From Pseudomonadota bacterium (GTDB lineage: Bacteria > Pseudomonadota > Gammaproteobacteria > Burkholderiales > Rhodocyclaceae): a stretch of DNA of 64,000 bases. The translations under genes and the position numbers were made by a program. Under the pieces are notes generated by a model. The model did no database searches and had not been told where the DNA came from. It worked only from the letters and a program-made list of their open reading frames with translations. Shown one piece after another: positions 4,021-56,892 of this stretch (position 1 is the stretch's first letter; each line of letters opens with the position of its first letter). The DNA is taken from NCBI GenBank assembly GCA_018241665.1, contig JAFEDK010000005.1:62001-126000 (forward strand), written 5' to 3'.

Positions 4021-4229
4021 CTTTCCGGCCTCCCCCCGCACTGTCTTCCGCCGGCGCCCCCTCCGCAGGGAATCCATCGCCCCTTCATCCGGCTGACGTC
4101 CGCACGAACTATCCTGTGAGCTGAACAGCGACACGCCACGGCACCATTTGGCCTTTGATGCATTGCAACAGGAACGCTATCCTGTCGCCATCCTTTCATT
4201 CAGCTCCACTCTTTCAAGCGAGACACAGC

Positions 4230-6539
4230 GTGAGCGACATCGATCTGAAACGCTTCTTCCTGGAACAGGTGCGCCTGTTCGAGCATTTCCCGGCCGACAA
4301 GGTCGAGGAGATCGTGGCCAGTGGGCGCCTGGCCACCTACGAAGGCAACGAGGCCATCCTGGAAACCGGTGACGAGGGCCAGTACCTCGGCGTGCTGATC
4401 ACCGGCCACGCGGAGATCTCGGTCACCGACAACACCGGCACCCGCACGGTGCTGACGCAGCTCGGCCCGGGCGACGTGTTCGGCGTGATGTCCACCCTCA
4501 CCGGCGACCGCGTGACCGCCGACGTGATCGCCGGCAACCGCTGCTACGTGCTGCTGATCCCGCTGGAGACCTTCAACAGCCACATCCTCACCAACCCGAA
4601 GGCCATCGGCTACCTGTCGCGAATGCTCCTCGAGCGCATGCGCAGCATGTCGCTGGACATCGTGTCGGCCAAATCGTCCGCCGCCTCGGTGCTGTCCCTG
4701 CACTCCGCCCACCCGGGCAAGGTGATCGCCCTCAACGTGGGCCTCAGCCAGATCCACTTCGGCATCTACGACACCCGCGACCTCGGCTCCGACGTCCACG
4801 GCATCATCGACAACGCCGACGAGTACGTGTCGCGCATCAGCGTGATGGTCGGCCCACAGGTCAAGACCATCACCCGCGACCCCTTCCCGCTGTCCGAGCT
4901 GTTCCAGGTCATGCAGGACTCCACGCGCCAGCTTGGCGACGCCTTCGCCTTCGAGCTCGATGAAATCTGCGCAGTCGGCCACCGGGTCGTCCATGGCGGC
5001 AACCGCTTCGCCGCCGCGGCGGTCATCACGCCGGCCGTCATCGCCGACATCGAGGCCCTGTCCGTCTTCGCCCCGCTGCACAACCCGGTCAATGTGGCCG
5101 GCATCCGCGAAGCCCTCAAGCAGCTGCCCGACGTGCCCCACGTGGCGGTCTTCGATACCGCCTTCCACCAGACCCTGCCGCCCTACGCCTACCTGTACGG
5201 CCTGCCCTACGACCTCTACAAGCAGGACGGCATCCGCCGCTACGGCTTCCACGGCACCTCCCACCGCTACGTGTCGCTGAAGTCGGCCGAGGTACTGAAG
5301 CGCCCCCTCGGCGAGCTCGAAATCGTCTCCTGCCACCTGGGTATCGGCGCCTCGGTGTGCGCCATCGACCACGGCCGCTCGGTGGACACCTCGATGGGCA
5401 TGACGCCCACCGACGGGCTGATCATGCCCAGCCGCTCCGGCAGCATCGACCCGGCGGTGATGGTGCACCTGATGGAACACCAGCAGATGTCGCCGGAGGC
5501 TCTGTCCACTCTGATCAACACCGAGAGCGGCCTGAAGGGCATCTCCGGCATCTCCAGCAACATCCACGACATCGAGACCGCCGCCGGCAACGGCCACCAC
5601 CGCGCGCTGCTGGCCCACAAGGCCTTCTGCTACCAGGTGCGCAAGAACATCGGCGCCTACGTGGCGGCCATGGGCGGCATCGACGTGCTGGCCTTCACCG
5701 GCGACATCGGCGAGACCAGTGCCGCGGTGCGCAGCCTGGCCTGCCAGGGCCTCGCCTACATGGGCATCAAGCTCGATGAAGAGAAGAACCGCAACCTCGG
5801 CAAGGTGGATGATTTCGCGATCATCTCCACCGACGACTCGCCGGTGACCATCCTCGTCATCTGCAACGACGACGAGCGCCTGGTGGCCTGGGAAACCCTG
5901 CGCGCCATCGAAAGGGACGAGCTGATCCGCGAGGCCAAGGCCGAGGAAAAGGCGCCGATGCCGATCCCCATCGAGATCTCGGCCCACCACGTGCATCTCT
6001 CCCAGGCCGATGTGGAAAAACTGTTCGGCCCCGGCCATCAGCTCACCCCGGAACACGAGCTGTCCCAGCCCGGCCAGTTCGCCTGTGCCGAGAAGGTCCA
6101 TCTGGTCGGCCCCAAGGGGCGCATCGCCAACGTGCGCGTGCTCGGCCCGACCCGCAAGGAAACCCAGGTCGAGATCGCCATGACCGAGCAATTCAAGGTC
6201 GGCCTGCAGCCGCCGATCCGCGAGTCCGGCGACCTCGCCAACACGCCGGGCATCACCCTCGAAGGGCCGGCCGGCAGCACCACCATCGAACGCGGCGTGA
6301 TCTGCGCCCAGCGCCACATCCACATGACGCCGGAAGACGCGCGCCGCCTGCGGGTGCGCGACAAGTACGTGGTGCGCGTGCGGGTCGAGGGCGAGCGCGA
6401 GCTGATCTTCGGCGACGTGATCGTGCGGGTCAGCCCGAGCTACCGGCTGGCGATGCACATCGACACCGACGAGGGCAACGCCGCCAACATCCGCACCGGC
6501 ATGCTCGGCTACATCGAGGAAATCCAGAGCCGCCACTGA
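4230..6539 (+). CDS. Fusion protein: cyclic-nucleotide-binding domain + acetate kinase domain + PduL phosphotransacylase domain
   Basis: 769 residues from a GTG at 4230 (reads VSDIDLKRFFLEQVRLF); an in-frame ATG at 4155 would add 25 residues that do not look like part of the domain. Residues about 8-140 are a cNMP/CRP-type effector domain (GDEGQYLGVLITGHAEI, LGPGDVFG). About 163-560 is an acetate/propionate kinase fold with RVVHGG, APLHNP, FDTAFHQT, RYGFHGTSHRYVS, CHLGIGAS and SRSGSIDP. About 575-765 is a PduL-type phosphotransacylase with HHVHLS and QRHIHMTP metal-binding histidines. Together the two enzymes would interconvert acyl-CoA and acid plus ATP, with regulation by a cyclic nucleotide. 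The kinase phosphate loop is altered (NVGLSQIH where N-x-G-S-S-S-x-K is usual), so kinase activity is uncertain. It stands alone in transcription. Confidence 0.88.
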   Translation: MSDIDLKRFFLEQVRLFEHFPADKVEEIVASGRLATYEGNEAILETGDEGQYLGVLITGHAEISVTDNTGTRTVLTQLGPGDVFGVMSTLTGDRVTADVIAGNRCYVLLIPLETFNSHILTNPKAIGYLSRMLLERMRSMSLDIVSAKSSAASVLSLHSAHPGKVIALNVGLSQIHFGIYDTRDLGSDVHGIIDNADEYVSRISVMVGPQVKTITRDPFPLSELFQVMQDSTRQLGDAFAFELDEICAVGHRVVHGGNRFAAAAVITPAVIADIEALSVFAPLHNPVNVAGIREALKQLPDVPHVAVFDTAFHQTLPPYAYLYGLPYDLYKQDGIRRYGFHGTSHRYVSLKSAEVLKRPLGELEIVSCHLGIGASVCAIDHGRSVDTSMGMTPTDGLIMPSRSGSIDPAVMVHLMEHQQMSPEALSTLINTESGLKGISGISSNIHDIETAAGNGHHRALLAHKAFCYQVRKNIGAYVAAMGGIDVLAFTGDIGETSAAVRSLACQGLAYMGIKLDEEKNRNLGKVDDFAIISTDDSPVTILVICNDDERLVAWETLRAIERDELIREAKAEEKAPMPIPIEISAHHVHLSQADVEKLFGPGHQLTPEHELSQPGQFACAEKVHLVGPKGRIANVRVLGPTRKETQVEIAMTEQFKVGLQPPIRESGDLANTPGITLEGPAGSTTIERGVICAQRHIHMTPEDARRLRVRDKYVVRVRVEGERELIFGDVIVRVSPSYRLAMHIDTDEGNAANIRTGMLGYIEEIQSRH

Positions 6540-6617: not shown

Positions 6618-6797
6618 CTAGTCGTTGCGCTCGAGGAAGCGCCGGGTCGCCAGGCGCAGGAAATCCATCTGCTGGCGGAAAGCCCGGCAGCCCCCGCAGA
6701 ACAACAGGTGCAGGCCCAGACGCATCCTTTCGGCGCGGCCCAGTGGGCGGTCCAGCGCCTCCGACATCAAATGGGTCGCGTCCTTGCATTTCATCAT
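6618..6797 (-). CDS. Small zinc-finger (zf-HC2) anti-sigma factor
   Basis: 59 residues beginning MMKCKDATHLMSEALDRPLG, with Cys4, His9 and a CGGC pair near residue 34: the C-x..-H-x..-C-x-x-C pattern of the zinc-binding anti-sigma domain. There is no membrane segment, so this is a soluble ZAS protein. Its ATG overlaps the TGA of the sigma gene (ATGA, 6797-6794), which points to translational coupling and to direct control of the adjacent sigma factor. The cysteines could sense metal or thiol stress, as in related pairs. Confidence 0.82.
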   Translation of the reverse strand: MMKCKDATHLMSEALDRPLGRAERMRLGLHLLFCGGCRAFRQQMDFLRLATRRFLERND

Positions 6798-7381
6798 GAT
6801 GCCCGGCCCTCCGCGCCGAACCAGCCGTGGGTAAGACACTGCCGCAGCGCCGCACGGGCCCGGTGCAGGATCACGTTGCAGTTGGTTGTGGTGAGCACCA
6901 GCGTCGCACAGATCTCGTCGGTCTCGAAACCAAGAAACTCGCGCATCATGAAGACCCGCGCGGTGCGTGCCGGCAGCACTTCCAGGCAGGTTTCGAAGAC
7001 CTGCCAGAACTGGCGCTGCGCCAGCGCCTCTTCCGGATCGCCCCACGCCTGCGGCCGCCCCTGCGGGCTCCAGTGCTCGTTGTCCTTGAAGAGCCGGTCG
7101 AAGGCCTCGTCGAGCGCCTCCTCGTCGCGCTCGAAGCTGGATATCTGCACCGTACGGCCACGCTCCCGCAGTGTGTCGATGATCTTGTGGCGCAGGATCG
7201 TGAAGATCCAGGTCTTCAGCGCCGAGCGCCCGGCAAAGCGGTCGATGCCCAGCAGCGCCGACTCGATGGCTTCCTGCACGGCGTCATCCGCCGCCGCCTC
7301 GTCCTGCAGCTGCAGGCGGGCAAACTTCAGCATCTGCGGGCGAAAGCCCGAAATGAGCTCGGCACTTCCGGAGTCGATCAT
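6794..7381 (-). CDS. ECF-type RNA polymerase sigma factor
   Basis: 195 residues with only regions 2 and 4. Region 2 is at about residues 15-85 (LKFARLQLQDEAAADDAVQEA, then FAGRSALKTWIFTILRHKIID). Region 4 is at about 125-190 (LPARTARVFMMREFLGFETDEICATL, then NVILHRARAALRQCL). It is followed by its anti-sigma factor and lies downstream of the RiPP genes, so it probably drives that operon and itself. ECF factors of this kind linked to DUF692/DUF2063 genes respond to heavy-metal or redox stress in other proteobacteria. Confidence 0.9.
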   Translation of the reverse strand: MIDSGSAELISGFRPQMLKFARLQLQDEAAADDAVQEAIESALLGIDRFAGRSALKTWIFTILRHKIIDTLRERGRTVQISSFERDEEALDEAFDRLFKDNEHWSPQGRPQAWGDPEEALAQRQFWQVFETCLEVLPARTARVFMMREFLGFETDEICATLVLTTTNCNVILHRARAALRQCLTHGWFGAEGRAS

Positions 7382-7574
7382 GTCTGGCGCACGGACTGCA
7401 GGGCGGCACGCCCATACGGCTTGGCAAGCTGCCGCCGATGGATCCGGATCTCCCTGCCCGGCCGCCCCGGCCCAGACAGGATCAGTGGCATCAGCATAGC
7501 AAGGAAGCGCCGCGCAGGCTGAAACTTGCCGTCGCCACGCGCCCCCTCAGACCCGGCGTGCCACACCGTGGCGC

Positions 7575-8321
7575 TCAGTTCCGCACTCCCAGCACGACAC
7601 CATGCCGGCAAAGCTCGGCGAGGCTATGCCGGCCGAAATCGAGGAAGGCGGCATCGGCGGGCCGCCCCAGCTCGGCGGCCAGGGCCTCGAGGGCCTGCCG
7701 CCCGCTCCGCTGCCCATCCAGCAGGGCCAGCAGGCGCGCCGTGGCCGGGCTCAAGTCCATGAAGCGCACCGCATCCTGCGCATCCCGGTACACCGCCAGA
7801 TGGACCGGCCCGGGCTGGCGCGGCCGGAAGGCCGGCCCGATGCGTTGCACCGGCCATGTGAAGCCCAGCGACAGCAAGGCCGGATTGGCCAGCGGCACGC
7901 CGTCGAGCAGGTCACCTCCGGGCCGGTGCGGCGGCACGACCACGTCCATCACGTCCACCGCCAGCTCCGCCCATTCGTAGCGCGCCAGCTCGCCGAACCA
8001 GCGTGGCAACGACTGGCGGCAGGCGCCGCTGTCCAGGTAGGCCAGAAACTCCTGCGGGATCTCGCGGAACCACGGCGTCGCACAGCGCCAGTCGCGCAGG
8101 AAGGCGCGGCACAGGCGGGTCCACCGGGCCTCGCCCAGCGTCGCCCGGGCCACCGGAAAGCAGCGGTCGAGGAAACCCCGCAGGCGCTGGAACACCAGTC
8201 CTTCGTACACCACCATGCGGGCGGCCGGCGCCCCCGCCGGACAGGCAACCCGGCGGCCGTGACGCAGGCGCTCGCCGAAGGCGGCCTGCCAGGCCTGCAG
8301 CCCGGCGGCGGGCCCGCTCAC
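7575..8321 (-). CDS. bufC: DUF2063-family partner protein of the MNIO enzyme
   Basis: 248 residues from a GTG at 8321 that overlaps the stop of the upstream gene (GTGA); no ATG fits the frame with a ribosome site. The N-terminal half (LQAWQAAFGERLRHG, then MVVYEGLVFQRLRGFLDRCFPVARATLG) is the helical DUF2063 domain, and the C-terminal half ends RHSLAELCRHGVVLGV. Proteins of this family bind the precursor peptide and work with the DUF692 oxygenase in RiPP maturation (bufferin/HvfC type). The symbol is given by family and gene order only. A 193-base gap without a convincing gene separates it from the sigma gene. Confidence 0.82.
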   Translation of the reverse strand: MSGPAAGLQAWQAAFGERLRHGRRVACPAGAPAARMVVYEGLVFQRLRGFLDRCFPVARATLGEARWTRLCRAFLRDWRCATPWFREIPQEFLAYLDSGACRQSLPRWFGELARYEWAELAVDVMDVVVPPHRPGGDLLDGVPLANPALLSLGFTWPVQRIGPAFRPRQPGPVHLAVYRDAQDAVRFMDLSPATARLLALLDGQRSGRQALEALAAELGRPADAAFLDFGRHSLAELCRHGVVLGVRN

Positions 8322-9163
8322 GCCAGCACCTCGGCGGCACGCCGCACACGGGCCTGGCGGGCAGCGATCTGCGCCACCTCGGAGCCCAGCGCAGCCAAAG
8401 TCGGAAAGTTGAAGTCCCGCTCCAGGCAGGTCGGCAGCGGACCAGTGCGCGCATAGGCAGCGTCGAGCAGCGCCCACACCGGGTCGATCACGTCGGCGCC
8501 ATGGGTGTCGATACGCAGCCCGTCCGGCTCCACATCGTGTCCCGCCACGTGGATGTAGCAGCAGCGCTCCAGCGGCAGCGCGTGCAGGAATGCGTAGGGG
8601 TCGAAGCCGAAGTTGGCGGCATTGACGAGGATGTTATTCACATCCAGGTGCAGCCGGCAGCCGGCCTCCTCCACCACTGCGCGGATGAAGTCCGCCTCGC
8701 CCATCTCGGCCCCGGGTGGCGCCACGTAGAACGAGGCGTTCTCGATGCCGATGGCCATGCCCAGCGCCTCCTGGACCTGGCGGATACGCCCGGCGACCCA
8801 GCGCACCGCCTCGCCGGTACACGGCAACGGCAGCAGTTCGTAGAGCTGGCCGGCGTCGCCGCACCAGGACAGGTGTTCGGTGTACAGGCCGATGCCATGC
8901 TCGGCCATGAAGCCGCGGATGCGCGCCAGCAGTTCCCTGTCGAGGGGCTGCGGGCCGCCGAGATTCAGGGACAGCCCGTGGCAGACGAAGGGGAAACGCT
9001 CGGTGAAGGCGCGCAGCTGGCGTGCCGAACGGCCGCCCATGCCGGCCCAGTTCTCCGGTGCCAGCTCAAAAAAGTCCACCGCATCGGGCACACCGGCTTC
9101 CATCTCGGCCAGCAGTTCGCGGCGAAAGCCGAGCCCGGCCCCATCGGGCATGCGTCCTGGCAT
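8318..9163 (-). CDS. bufB: MNIO-family (DUF692) RiPP-modifying iron oxygenase
   Basis: 281 residues with a TIM-barrel DUF692 signature. Candidate metal ligands are seen at CHGLSLNLG, EHLSW, IENASFY, HLDVNN, IHVAGH, DTHG and ERDFNFP. Multinuclear non-haem iron enzymes of this family convert cysteine residues of precursor peptides into oxazolone/thioamide or thiooxazole groups that bind copper (MbnB, HvfB and BufB are characterised relatives). It follows the precursor gene by 60 bases and overlaps the DUF2063 gene by 4 bases, matching the usual order. The start has GAGGATT-type spacing to a purine-rich site. Confidence 0.9.
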   Translation of the reverse strand: MPGRMPDGAGLGFRRELLAEMEAGVPDAVDFFELAPENWAGMGGRSARQLRAFTERFPFVCHGLSLNLGGPQPLDRELLARIRGFMAEHGIGLYTEHLSWCGDAGQLYELLPLPCTGEAVRWVAGRIRQVQEALGMAIGIENASFYVAPPGAEMGEADFIRAVVEEAGCRLHLDVNNILVNAANFGFDPYAFLHALPLERCCYIHVAGHDVEPDGLRIDTHGADVIDPVWALLDAAYARTGPLPTCLERDFNFPTLAALGSEVAQIAARQARVRRAAEVLA

Positions 9164-9223
9164 GTCGAATCCTCCCGCCTGTGCCGGAGCCGGGCCTTTG
9201 CCCGCCCCGGCCGTTCCGCTCGA

Positions 9224-9523
9224 TTACTTCTTCTTGTCGGCGCCGCAGCTACCGTCGCCCTTCTTGTCCGCGCCACAGGAACCATCGGCCTTCTTGTCCA
9301 TGGCCATCTTTTCATCCATCTTCTTGTCGGCCTTGTGGGCGGGCTTCTTGGCGGCAGCCTTCTTATCCCCGCCACACTTGCCATCCTGCATCTTGGTATC
9401 GGCCTGGGCCAGCTGGTAGCCCCCTTCCAGCGGCTTGGCTGCGAAGGGGTTGTCGGCGGCATGGGCAACACCAAAGGCGACGGACGCGGCCAGCGCAGCG
9501 GTTACGGCGGAAGTCTTCTTCAT
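9224..9523 (-). CDS. Secreted, lysine-rich, cysteine-motif RiPP precursor (bufferin/HvfA-like)
   Basis: 99 residues from the ATG at 9523, seven bases after AAGGAG (a GTG at 9526 is too close). A Sec signal peptide covers about residues 1-22 (MKKTSAVTAALAASVAFG, cleaved near AHA-AD). The mature part is almost only K, A, D, G and M with three cysteines, one in DGKCGGDKK and two in the repeated DGSCGADKK. DGKCG resembles the EGKCG motif modified by MNIO enzymes in HvfA-like copper-binding peptides. It is the first gene of the operon with the MNIO enzyme, DUF2063 protein, ECF sigma and anti-sigma. A periplasmic copper (or other soft metal) buffering role is inferred. Confidence 0.85.
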   Translation of the reverse strand: MKKTSAVTAALAASVAFGVAHAADNPFAAKPLEGGYQLAQADTKMQDGKCGGDKKAAAKKPAHKADKKMDEKMAMDKKADGSCGADKKGDGSCGADKKK

Positions 9524-9600
9524 CACGGATCTCCTTGAGGGGTTGAACAGCCCTGCCGGACGCCGGCATGGCAGTCCGGATTATCAGGTGCTGGCGATTG

Positions 9601-9627
9601 GACGGGAATGCCCCCGGTGTTCTTACA
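9601..9627 (-). promoter_or_regulatory. Possible ECF-sigma promoter of the RiPP operon
   Basis: On the minus strand TGTAAG (9627-9622) and CGTC (9604-9601) are separated by 17 bases, about 78 bases upstream of the precursor start. Many ECF promoters have an AAC/TAA-type -35 and a CGTC/CGAA -10 box with 16-17 bases between. This would give autoregulation by the operon's own sigma factor. It is only one site, so support is limited. Confidence 0.35.
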
Positions 9628-9699: not shown

Positions 9700-9766
9700 G
9701 TGGGGGCGAATTCATTCGCCCGCGGTGGTCGATCAAGGGATAGAGGGCGAATGAATTCGCCCCCAC
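9700..9766. repeat. REPIN-like element, copy 1
   Basis: Two 22-base arms, 9700-9721 (core GGCGAATTCATTCGCC) and its reverse complement at 9745-9766, flank a 23-base spacer beginning GCGGTGGTCGATCAA. Just to the left, 9671-9699, are two shortened and decayed arm starts (GGGGCGAATCTGTG). It occupies the gap between the RiPP operon and the AhpD-like gene. Confidence 0.9.
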
Positions 9767-9884: not shown

Positions 9885-10466
9885 TCAGCTCTTCGGCAGG
9901 CGGCCCATCAGGTAGAACTCGTCGTTGGGGCGCAGGGAAATCAGGTTGGCGAGCCGGTTGCTCATCGCGAAGAAGGCGGTGATCGCGCCGATGTCCCAGA
10001 TCGCCTCGTCGTCGAAGCCGTGGGCCTTGACGGCCGCGATGTCCGCATCGCCGACGGTGGCCGCATCGAGGGACAGCTTCAGCGCGAAGTCGAGCATGGC
10101 CTGCTGGCGCGGGCTGATCTCGGCCTTGCGGTAGTTGGTGGCCAGCTGGTCGGCAACGCGCGGGTTCTTGGCGCGGATGCGCAGGATCGCCCCGTGGGCA
10201 ACCACACAGTACAGGCACTGGTTGGCACCGGAAGTGGCGACGACGATCATCTCCCGCTCGGCCTTGCTGAGGCCGACGTCCTTCTCCATCAGCGCGTCGT
10301 GGTAGGCGAAGAAGGCACGGAATTCCTCCGGACGGTGGGCCAGCGCGAGGAACACGTTGGGCACGAAACCGGCTTTTTCCTGCACGGCGAGGATGCGGTC
10401 ACGCACGTCCTCGGGCAGGTCGGCGAGTTCGGGAACGGGGTAGCGGCTGATCGGCAGATCGGACAT
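9885..10466 (-). CDS. Peroxidase-related (AhpD/CMD-like) protein
   Basis: 193 residues of the carboxymuconolactone-decarboxylase/AhpD fold. The catalytic stretch GANQCLYCVVAHGAILR (about residues 79-95) has the C-x-x-C-x-x-x-H motif of alkylhydroperoxidase D-like proteins, and the whole length fits the 'uncharacterised peroxidase-related enzyme' family. It probably reduces peroxides with the CxxC pair. It is a single gene with its own terminator, divergent from the cyclophilin-like gene. The physiological substrate is unknown. Confidence 0.88.
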   Translation of the reverse strand: MSDLPISRYPVPELADLPEDVRDRILAVQEKAGFVPNVFLALAHRPEEFRAFFAYHDALMEKDVGLSKAEREMIVVATSGANQCLYCVVAHGAILRIRAKNPRVADQLATNYRKAEISPRQQAMLDFALKLSLDAATVGDADIAAVKAHGFDDEAIWDIGAITAFFAMSNRLANLISLRPNDEFYLMGRLPKS

Positions 10467-15716: not shown

Positions 15717-15783
15717 GTGGGGGCGAATTCATTCGCCCGCGGACTTCATTCAACCGACTGAGGGCGAATGAATTCGCCCCCAC
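15717..15783. repeat. REPIN-like element, copy 2
   Basis: Arms at 15717-15738 and 15762-15783 are identical to copy 1 and enclose a 23-base spacer beginning GCGGACTTCATTCAACC. It lies between the glycerate kinase and GlcG-like genes inside a co-directional gene run, so it would be transcribed as a hairpin between them. Confidence 0.9.
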
Positions 15784-37167: not shown

Positions 37168-37234
37168 GTGGGGGCGAATTCATTCGCCCTCAGTCGGCTC
37201 GACGAAGTCCGCGGGCGAATGAATTCGCCCCCAC
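37168..37234. repeat. REPIN-like element, copy 3 (inverted orientation)
   Basis: Arms at 37168-37189 and 37213-37234 with a 23-base spacer that reads as the reverse complement of the spacers in copies 2, 4 and 5 (TCAGTCGGCTCGACGAAG). This shows the element has a polarity and sits here reversed. A shortened arm (TGTGGGGGCGAATTTT) precedes it at 37151. Confidence 0.9.
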
Positions 37235-43713: not shown

Positions 43714-43780
43714 GTGGGGGCGAATTCATTCGCCCGCGGAGTTCGATCAACCCACAGAGGGCGAATGAATTCGCCCCTAC
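43714..43780. repeat. REPIN-like element, copy 4, with decayed arms
   Basis: Arms at 43714-43735 and 43759-43780 enclose a 23-base spacer starting GCGGAGTTCGATCAACC. To the left, 43660-43681 and 43693-43713 are two incomplete arms (GGGGCGAATTCATCTG and GGGGGCGAGCTCATCTG), as if arm ends had been copied in tandem and then decayed. It separates uraD from puuD. Confidence 0.9.
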
Positions 43781-56825: not shown

Positions 56826-56892
56826 GTGGGGGCGAATTCATTCGCCCGCGGACTTCGATCAGGCGACAGCGGGCGAATGAATTCGCCCCCAC
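56826..56892. repeat. REPIN-like element, copy 5
   Basis: Arms at 56826-56847 and 56871-56892 with a 23-base spacer beginning GCGGACTTCGATCAGG. It is preceded by a GCTGCTGTGGGGCTG tandem edge (56807-56825). Together with the arms at 56672 and 56928 it fills the 334-base gap between fghA and the converging aminotransferase-like gene, which holds nothing else recognisable. Confidence 0.9.

Follow-up and report, generated by a model that had tools for sequence, protein, structure and literature searches.

Operons for ribosomally synthesized and post-translationally modified peptides (RiPPs) matured by multinuclear non-heme iron-dependent oxidative (MNIO, DUF692) enzymes include the closest described relatives of the locus analysed here, an hvf-type operon on the minus strand of a 64,000-nucleotide stretch of contig JAFEDK010000005.1 (hereafter the window). 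The sigmaE operon of Neisseria (NGO1943-1948 / NMB2140-2145; gonophorin, MseR) carries, in this order, genes for a periplasmic protein, a DUF692 protein, a DUF2063 protein, a sigma factor and an anti-sigma factor, and sigmaE is autoregulated (PMC2954202, PMC2893595). The enzymes FonBC and HvfBC and their gonococcal counterparts form 5-thiooxazoles, seven of them in fontiphorin, and the products bind Cu (PMC13097082). In the oxazolin system of Haemophilus influenzae (HvfABC), HvfA bears three AEGKCGEGKCG motifs (PMC13419390), and rpoE2 adjoins msrAB (PMC7907618). Bufferin clusters of the Buf1 kind contain sigma and NrsF genes, and the core-gene list given for EGKCG clusters in the same paper is without sigma (PMC12452194). 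The association of a sigma factor with EGKCG-type clusters is already known, because the neisserial papers show one with this type.

The window operon has the neisserial gene order and resembles the neisserial system in the anti-sigma residues Cys4/His30/Cys34/Cys37 and in the type of a candidate promoter with a 13-nt spacer. It differs in the placing of doxX, which stands at the promoter end in Neisseria, between hvfC and sigma in the closest relatives of the window, and as a relic in the window itself. In Neisseria msrAB is a sigmaE target, whereas a second target was not found in the window's genome by the strict promoter pattern described below. As in the oxazolin system, HvfB and HvfC score above the equivalog cut-offs, but the precursor has three isolated sites, two of them with Ser, and the sigma gene lies inside the hvf operon. 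Fontiphorin and captophorin are resembled in the EGKCG-like sites and in the FRR and ERDF motifs, as in the Lys-Cys MNIO group (assigned by motif); at most three thiooxazoles would fit the window peptide. Among captophorin features, adjacent MNIO and PME1 genes and a signal-like N-terminus (judged by eye) were found, with one DGKCG only. Bufferin Buf1 operons with sigmaF/NrsF share the MNIO and DUF2063 genes and the control by an extracytoplasmic function (ECF) sigma factor; they differ in that the window maturase falls below the bufferin cut-off, DUF2282 was not detected, and the anti-sigma factor is small and soluble in place of the six-segment membrane protein NrsF (PMC3511200).

The locus is very probably a Zoogloea captophorin (Hvf-type) operon with a self-amplifying metal or oxidant response and a thiooxazole peptide as product. 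It is a real operon of a known kind, a new member with an ordinary Lys/Ser mix; what is added here, as hypotheses, is a doxX deletion, a link to a thioredoxin-CcdA pair and a Lys/Ser rule. We infer co-transcription, chemistry, export, copper binding and inducer as follows. In the cytoplasm HvfB and HvfC probably turn the cysteines of the D-G-K/S-C-G sites into 5-thiooxazoles. The product would be exported by Sec and bind Cu(I), perhaps also other soft metals, in the periplasm. The sigma factor would transcribe the operon in full, including both its own gene and that of the anti-sigma factor, from a single promoter ahead of hvfA. The zinc-type anti-sigma factor would keep sigma in check as long as its Cys4/Cys34/Cys37 site is undisturbed by a thiol-reactive signal (metal or oxidant), and the loop would amplify itself with its brake co-induced.

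Gene order, source and enzyme family

The five genes of a first-pass annotation were borne out by the sequence, which places them on the minus strand, and by Pfam cut-offs (Table 1; HvfB, HvfC, sigma and anti-sigma each have Pfam matches above these). The right end of that annotation, at 9627, just takes in the promoter; the promoter itself and the doxX relic had been overlooked. The order on the minus strand is promoter-like site, precursor, hvfB, hvfC, doxX relic, ECF sigma and anti-sigma, and by their coordinates hvfB shares 4 bases with hvfC, as sigma does with anti-sigma.

Table 1. Coordinates in the window of the hvf locus and of features near it
Feature	Position	Strand	Basis
hvfA-like precursor, 99 aa	9224..9523 (ATG 9523)	-	Sec-signal-like N-terminus (by eye), NPFAAKPLEGGYQLAQAD segment, 3 Cys (DGKCG, DGSCG, DGSCG)
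hvfB, MNIO (DUF692) RiPP maturase, 281 aa	8318..9163	-	NF003818 380.8 > 360 bits; PF05114 319.8 bits
hvfC, DUF2063/NGO1945_C partner, GTG start	7575..8321	-	NF050145 248 > 142 bits; PF22106 89.5, PF09836 (DUF2063) 82.7 bits
doxX relic, C-terminal end, 5' part missing	7378..7537	-	80-82% DNA match to doxX 3' ends of L002, L003 and L065
ECF sigma factor, 195 aa	6794..7381	-	PRK12532 279.2 > 276 bits; TIGR02943 259 > 162 bits; Sigma70_r2 53.6, r4_2 40.3 bits
ZAS-type anti-sigma factor, 59 aa	6618..6797	-	NF052368 77.6 > 50 bits; zf-HC2 32 bits; Cys4, His30, Cys34, Cys37
Candidate sigmaE-type ECF promoter, -35 element GTAAGAACA	9618..9626	-	6/9 letters of neisserial GTMAGBWTT (PMC2893595)
Candidate sigmaE-type ECF promoter, -10 element CGTCCAAT	9597..9604	-	7/8 letters of neisserial CGTCTAAH (PMC2893595)
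794-aa frame: cyclic-nucleotide-binding domain, acetate kinase, phosphate propanoyltransferase	4155-6539	+	PF00027, PF00871, PF06130
Peroxidase-related protein, carboxymuconolactone decarboxylase family	9885-10466	-	TIGR01926, 230.2 bits
REP-like repeat copies	9704-9762, 15721-15779, 37172-37230, 43718-43776, 56830-56888; other single copies		

The source genome is most likely that of a Zoogloea species and grouped with 22 further genomes in a search of the genus. The nearest genus-named relative is Zoogloea sp. LCSB751 (locus L002; HvfB identity 92%, against 93% for L003). All four proteins are full length and highly identical to those of L002, L003 and L065 (HvfB 88-93%, HvfC 82-89%, sigma 93-98%, anti-sigma 88-95%).

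The earlier description as an MNIO/DUF2063 RiPP operon holds, with both proteins above their model cut-offs. Within the proposed bufferin/HvfA-type systems it belongs to the Hvf (oxazolin/captophorin) type rather than to the DUF2282 bufferin type: the DUF692 protein, whose subgroup had been put forward as a check, falls in the HvfB equivalog NF003818, and with the bufferin maturase model NF050167 it scored 244 bits against a cut-off of 310. HvfB matches PDB 3bww (E 4e-71) and HvfC matches 3dee (E 1e-14), the two solved structures assigned to this system (PMC13097082). The MNIO motifs are intact in HvfB (FRR at 13-15, HGLSL, TEHLSW, DVNN, DTHG, ERDFNF); among 88 distinct relatives DTHG was present in 88, FRR in 82 and ERDFN in 75, in local alignments that may cut the ends. 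FRR and ERDF resemble Arg15/Arg16 and Asp249/Phe250 of FonB (PMC13097082), placed by motif only. The window's genome yielded one MNIO gene. The HvfB-type family is widespread: of 369 genomes sampled throughout the class, 117 encode a protein that scores above the cut-off. An HvfC match accompanied this type of HvfB in 98 of 100 loci, the window included (L072 and L098 stop at HvfB).

Cysteine sites of the precursor

The three predicted motifs (DGKCGGDKK and twice DGSCGADKK) are present. The 'nearly pure K/A/D/G/M background' ascribed to the peptide describes its C-terminal half and does not describe the rest, since NPFAAKPLEGGYQLAQAD comes after the signal-like segment. No Pfam match was obtained up to E 1, and no DUF2282. 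The plan is common to relatives, namely a signal-like N-terminus, an NPF..L..GYQ segment (stretches like NPFAAKPLEGGYQLAQAD recur in other precursors) and then the Cys sites.

Related precursors were collected from the hvf loci; none was found in L053, L068, L099 and L103. From the 100 others, seven without a usable reading (L041, L044, L046, L074, L100, L101, L102) and 13 repeats of the same core were set aside, which left 80, two of them not from beta-proteobacteria by name (L069, L079). A second set was drawn from elsewhere in the class, with the best 30 loci kept; 5 had no precursor under the filter, leaving 25. The mixture of Lys and Ser before Cys, described earlier as an unusual design, is ordinary: both residues occur in 48 of the 80 precursors, Lys only in 27 and no Lys in 1. 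The idea of an unusual design was therefore rejected.

Which residue precedes Cys depends on the spacing of the sites. At doublet sites (Cys five apart) it was Lys in 231 of 232 and Arg in 1, Ser never; the 204 isolated sites had Ser (104), Lys (79) or others (21) (Lys against other residues, doublet against isolated: Fisher P 6e-53, in a test that ignores kinship). The precursors of L041, L046, L068 and L074, recognised afterwards and outside these counts, have Lys-only sites and leave the rule unbroken. In the class set Lys preceded Cys at 48 of 53 isolated sites, Ser at none, and at 143 of 149 doublet sites. Because isolated sites elsewhere in the class never have Ser, the Ser sites appear to characterise the wider group to which the window belongs. 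The string DGSCG was not found in the main texts (without supplementary tables) of four MNIO papers.

This pattern bears on how many cysteines are modified. A DGKCG substrate is fully modified by FonBC (PMC13097082), and the window precursor has only one DGKCG, its repeated 5-mer being DGSCG, with an EGKCG pair in close relatives. Possibly only the DGKCG is modified and the two DGSCG stay plain thiols, as extra soft-metal ligands. The position-3 variants named for FonBC in the passages on its substrate do not include Ser (PMC13097082), and the absence of Ser from all 232 paired sites indicates that Ser and Lys sites are not interchangeable. We regard this as very doubtful, however: FonBC tolerates Ala, Arg and Thr in place of Lys at that position (PMC13097082), and the L021 precursor, with seven DGSCG sites and one Lys pair, would keep most of its Cys unmodified. 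With modification at both kinds of site as the preferred reading, the Lys/Ser rule offers a direct test of enzyme selectivity.

The precursors of L002, L003 and L065 have DGKCGEGKCGADKK at the place of DGKCGGDKK in the window, and 4 Cys against 3. One EGKCG unit was apparently lost in frame in the window lineage; this is the best fit of the proteins by eye, and the automatic alignment instead draws substitutions and a gap further on. Three Cys is the lowest number but one among the 80 precursors. A requirement for an even Cys count (copper pairing) fitted 76 of 80 in the first set and was dropped as not general, odd numbers being found in 10 of the 25 class-set precursors (seven Cys in 6, nine in 3, eleven in 1). 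A hairpin between hvfA and hvfB was likewise left as weak (z -2.6 with dinucleotide shuffling, and -1.4 with single-base shuffling of a stretch that differed slightly), z below -2 being reached in 30 of 75 intergenic stretches.

Regulation of the operon

The second-best match to the sigma factor in its own genome is 31% identical. In the anti-sigma factor a transmembrane segment is not evident by eye. It has the features of the MseR type (Cys4, HxxxCxxC at 30-37, gene directly after sigma), and an early Cys with HxxxCxxC was found in all 56 distinct homologues long enough to be tested. Meningococcal MseR has these residues at the same positions; there the three Cys are important and His30 is dispensable (PMC2893595).

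The candidate promoter before hvfA has a 13-nt spacer (12-13 in Neisseria), its -10 element lies 73 nt before the hvfA ATG, and the site is conserved in place. Genomes were searched with a strict pattern (GTAANNAN{13,16}CGWCYAA) and, as a control, with the same pattern read backwards. The single strict match in the 5.43-Mb genome of the window is the hvf site. Across the genus, 23 strict sites lie before hvfA (13), before a thioredoxin-CcdA pair (6), before a second MNIO gene (1) and elsewhere (3). With a loose pattern, for which single-base shuffles gave an expectation below 0.2 per class of loci, the promoter-like site moves with the architecture. Where sigma is downstream, the site precedes hvfA in 28 of 31 loci (0.13 expected) and sigma in 0 of 31; where an anti-sigma gene heads the operon, it precedes that gene in 13 of 13 and hvfA in 0 of 12; where sigma is downstream on the other strand, it precedes both in 3 of 4. 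This supports the earlier suggestion that the operon switches itself on: a candidate promoter of the sigmaE type stands ahead of the precursor gene, and Neisseria offers a precedent (PMC2893595).

Several results weigh against the interpretation as a self-amplifying Hvf-type copper operon. The precursor reached only 13.5 bits (E 0.085) with the NCBIfam HvfA model NF050188, whose cut-off is 95. By number the strict pattern is not enriched: the control gave 3 + 3 matches against 1 in the window's genome, and in the genus, where 17 of 23 genomes had strict matches, 91 sites against 23. Where sigma and anti-sigma lie directly before hvfA, the loose pattern was found neither before hvfA (0/10) nor before sigma (0/9), and it occurred in 6 of 29 loci where sigma is not nearby. 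The loci are related, so that the counts are not independent. The link of this operon to copper is a prediction, and the similar meningococcal system is not induced by H2O2, diamide, singlet oxygen or SDS-EDTA (PMC2893595). As the control pattern is the commoner, number gives no evidence, and the evidence for the promoter is its position.

The main job of the operon might instead be envelope oxidant defence (HOCl, methionine oxidation), by a sacrificial or redox-active thiol peptide with copper secondary; this overlaps with the explanation preferred here and differs from it in signal and benefit. In Neisseria such sigma factors govern methionine sulfoxide reductase (PMC2893595, PMC3240639); the same holds in Haemophilus, whose rpoE2 expression rises with HOCl and H2O2 (PMC7907618). 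The Zoogloea thioredoxin-CcdA pair has the same type of promoter. Oxidant defence as the main job is nevertheless considered somewhat unlikely: those products of the enzyme group that have been characterised are Cu-binding (PMC13097082), and Caulobacter sigmaF, which controls DUF2282-type operons and has another type of anti-sigma factor, answers Cr and Cd and not reactive-oxygen agents (PMC3511200).

Strict matches in the class with sigma and anti-sigma before hvfA were rejected as promoters, their coordinates falling inside the sigma gene. In the anti-sigma-headed loci (L032, L033, L035, L038, L044, L045, L047, L048, L057, L059, L060, L061, L064) sigma is divergent beside anti-sigma in 12 of 13, the sigma match of L033 being far away; this arrangement would make a pure negative feedback loop. 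The sigmaE-type pattern before a second MNIO gene (L123; G011:C138:1462-1489), whose product is 39% identical to HvfB, was seen in one Zoogloea genome.

The doxX relic

A doxX gene fills the space between hvfC and sigma in L002, L003 and L065 (551-560 bp against 197 in the window). The DNA match of the relic to these genes runs on into the sigma gene, and tblastn with the L002 DoxX gave E 4e-12. The DoxX protein of L024, a PF07681 member (81.6 bits), matched G006, G013 and G014 at 67-69%; the HvfB identities of these three genomes (92, 93 and 88%) equal those of the L002, L003 and L065 loci. Searched against the whole genome of the window it gave no match at E 0.001, and an intact doxX was not found. 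Because the window sits within a DoxX-bearing group on the HvfB tree (support 99/93), the loss of doxX in its lineage looks recent; it is seen in one genome, with an assembly fault as an alternative.

The operon could also be decaying in the window lineage, with a peptide that may no longer work well. The doxX gene is a relic, another DoxX match and a thioredoxin-CcdA pair of the Zoogloea type were not found in the genome, one EGKCG repeat is gone, and 3 Cys is near the minimum of the 80 precursors. Against this, the four proteins are full length and highly identical to those of relatives, the promoter is kept, and eleven other Zoogloea genomes have this hvfB and no doxX; decay is thus judged improbable.

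Thioredoxin and CcdA genes in Zoogloea

A thioredoxin gene followed by a CcdA/DsbD_TM gene was found in 10 of the 23 Zoogloea genomes, all 10 of which have this hvfB. A promoter match precedes the pair in 6 of 10 by the strict pattern and in 9 of 10 by the loose one (0.015 expected), with at least one of the patterns in each. Among the 18 Zoogloea genomes with the window-type hvfB, 6 have DoxX, 10 the pair, none both, and 2 neither, these being the window's genome and G022 (77% completeness). The five genomes without this hvfB have neither pair nor DoxX, except for a weak DoxX-like match in G010 (E 1e-4, 32%), which was not counted. A report of such a pair with hvf was not found in a literature search or in three MNIO papers, in which the word thioredoxin does not occur.

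The passages on DoxX in such operons mention only possible roles (PMC13097082; PMC12452194). The promoter-bearing pair in Zoogloea without doxX suggests, without proving it, a thiol-redox role for DoxX. More specifically, DoxX might be a periplasmic thiol-redox helper, keeping for example the peptide thiolates or Cu(I) reduced, for which a pair of a periplasmic-type thioredoxin and CcdA/DsbD_TM under the same sigma factor can substitute. We hold this to be unlikely as it stands: only two changes are needed on the HvfB tree, so that the Zoogloea pattern is weak evidence. In the window lineage doxX was lost and the pair is not present. If it were true, the isolated DGSCG would be a second, distinct class of site. 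Zoogloea supplies natural contrasts for testing DoxX, since its genomes have doxX, lack it but carry a co-regulated pair, or have lost it recently.

DoxX and the pair as strict alternatives hold in Zoogloea only, and a general rule of this kind was rejected. DoxX, thioredoxin and CcdA are all nearby in 10 of 88 loci (Comamonadaceae, Comamonas, Limnohabitans and one Burkholderiales by name). CcdA was sought in 50 genomes and DoxX in 39, and both were found in G030, G033, G039 and G040. For L023, L024, L029 and L043, doxX is part of the locus and the genome contains CcdA; for L047 it is thioredoxin that is part of the locus, DoxX lies elsewhere (G036), and CcdA was not found.

Flanking genes and repeats

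The acetate kinase fusion gene ends at 6539 and converges with the anti-sigma gene, which ends at 6618. The gene of the peroxidase-related protein shares the strand of the hvf operon and lies upstream of its promoter. A repeat resembling repetitive extragenic palindromic (REP) elements consists of two near-palindromes (GGGCGAATTCATTCGCCC and GGGCGAATGAATTCGCCC) whose starts are 41 bases apart. It gave 30 pattern matches in the window, both strands counted, against 0.02 expected, with a copy about 80 bases upstream of the hvf promoter.

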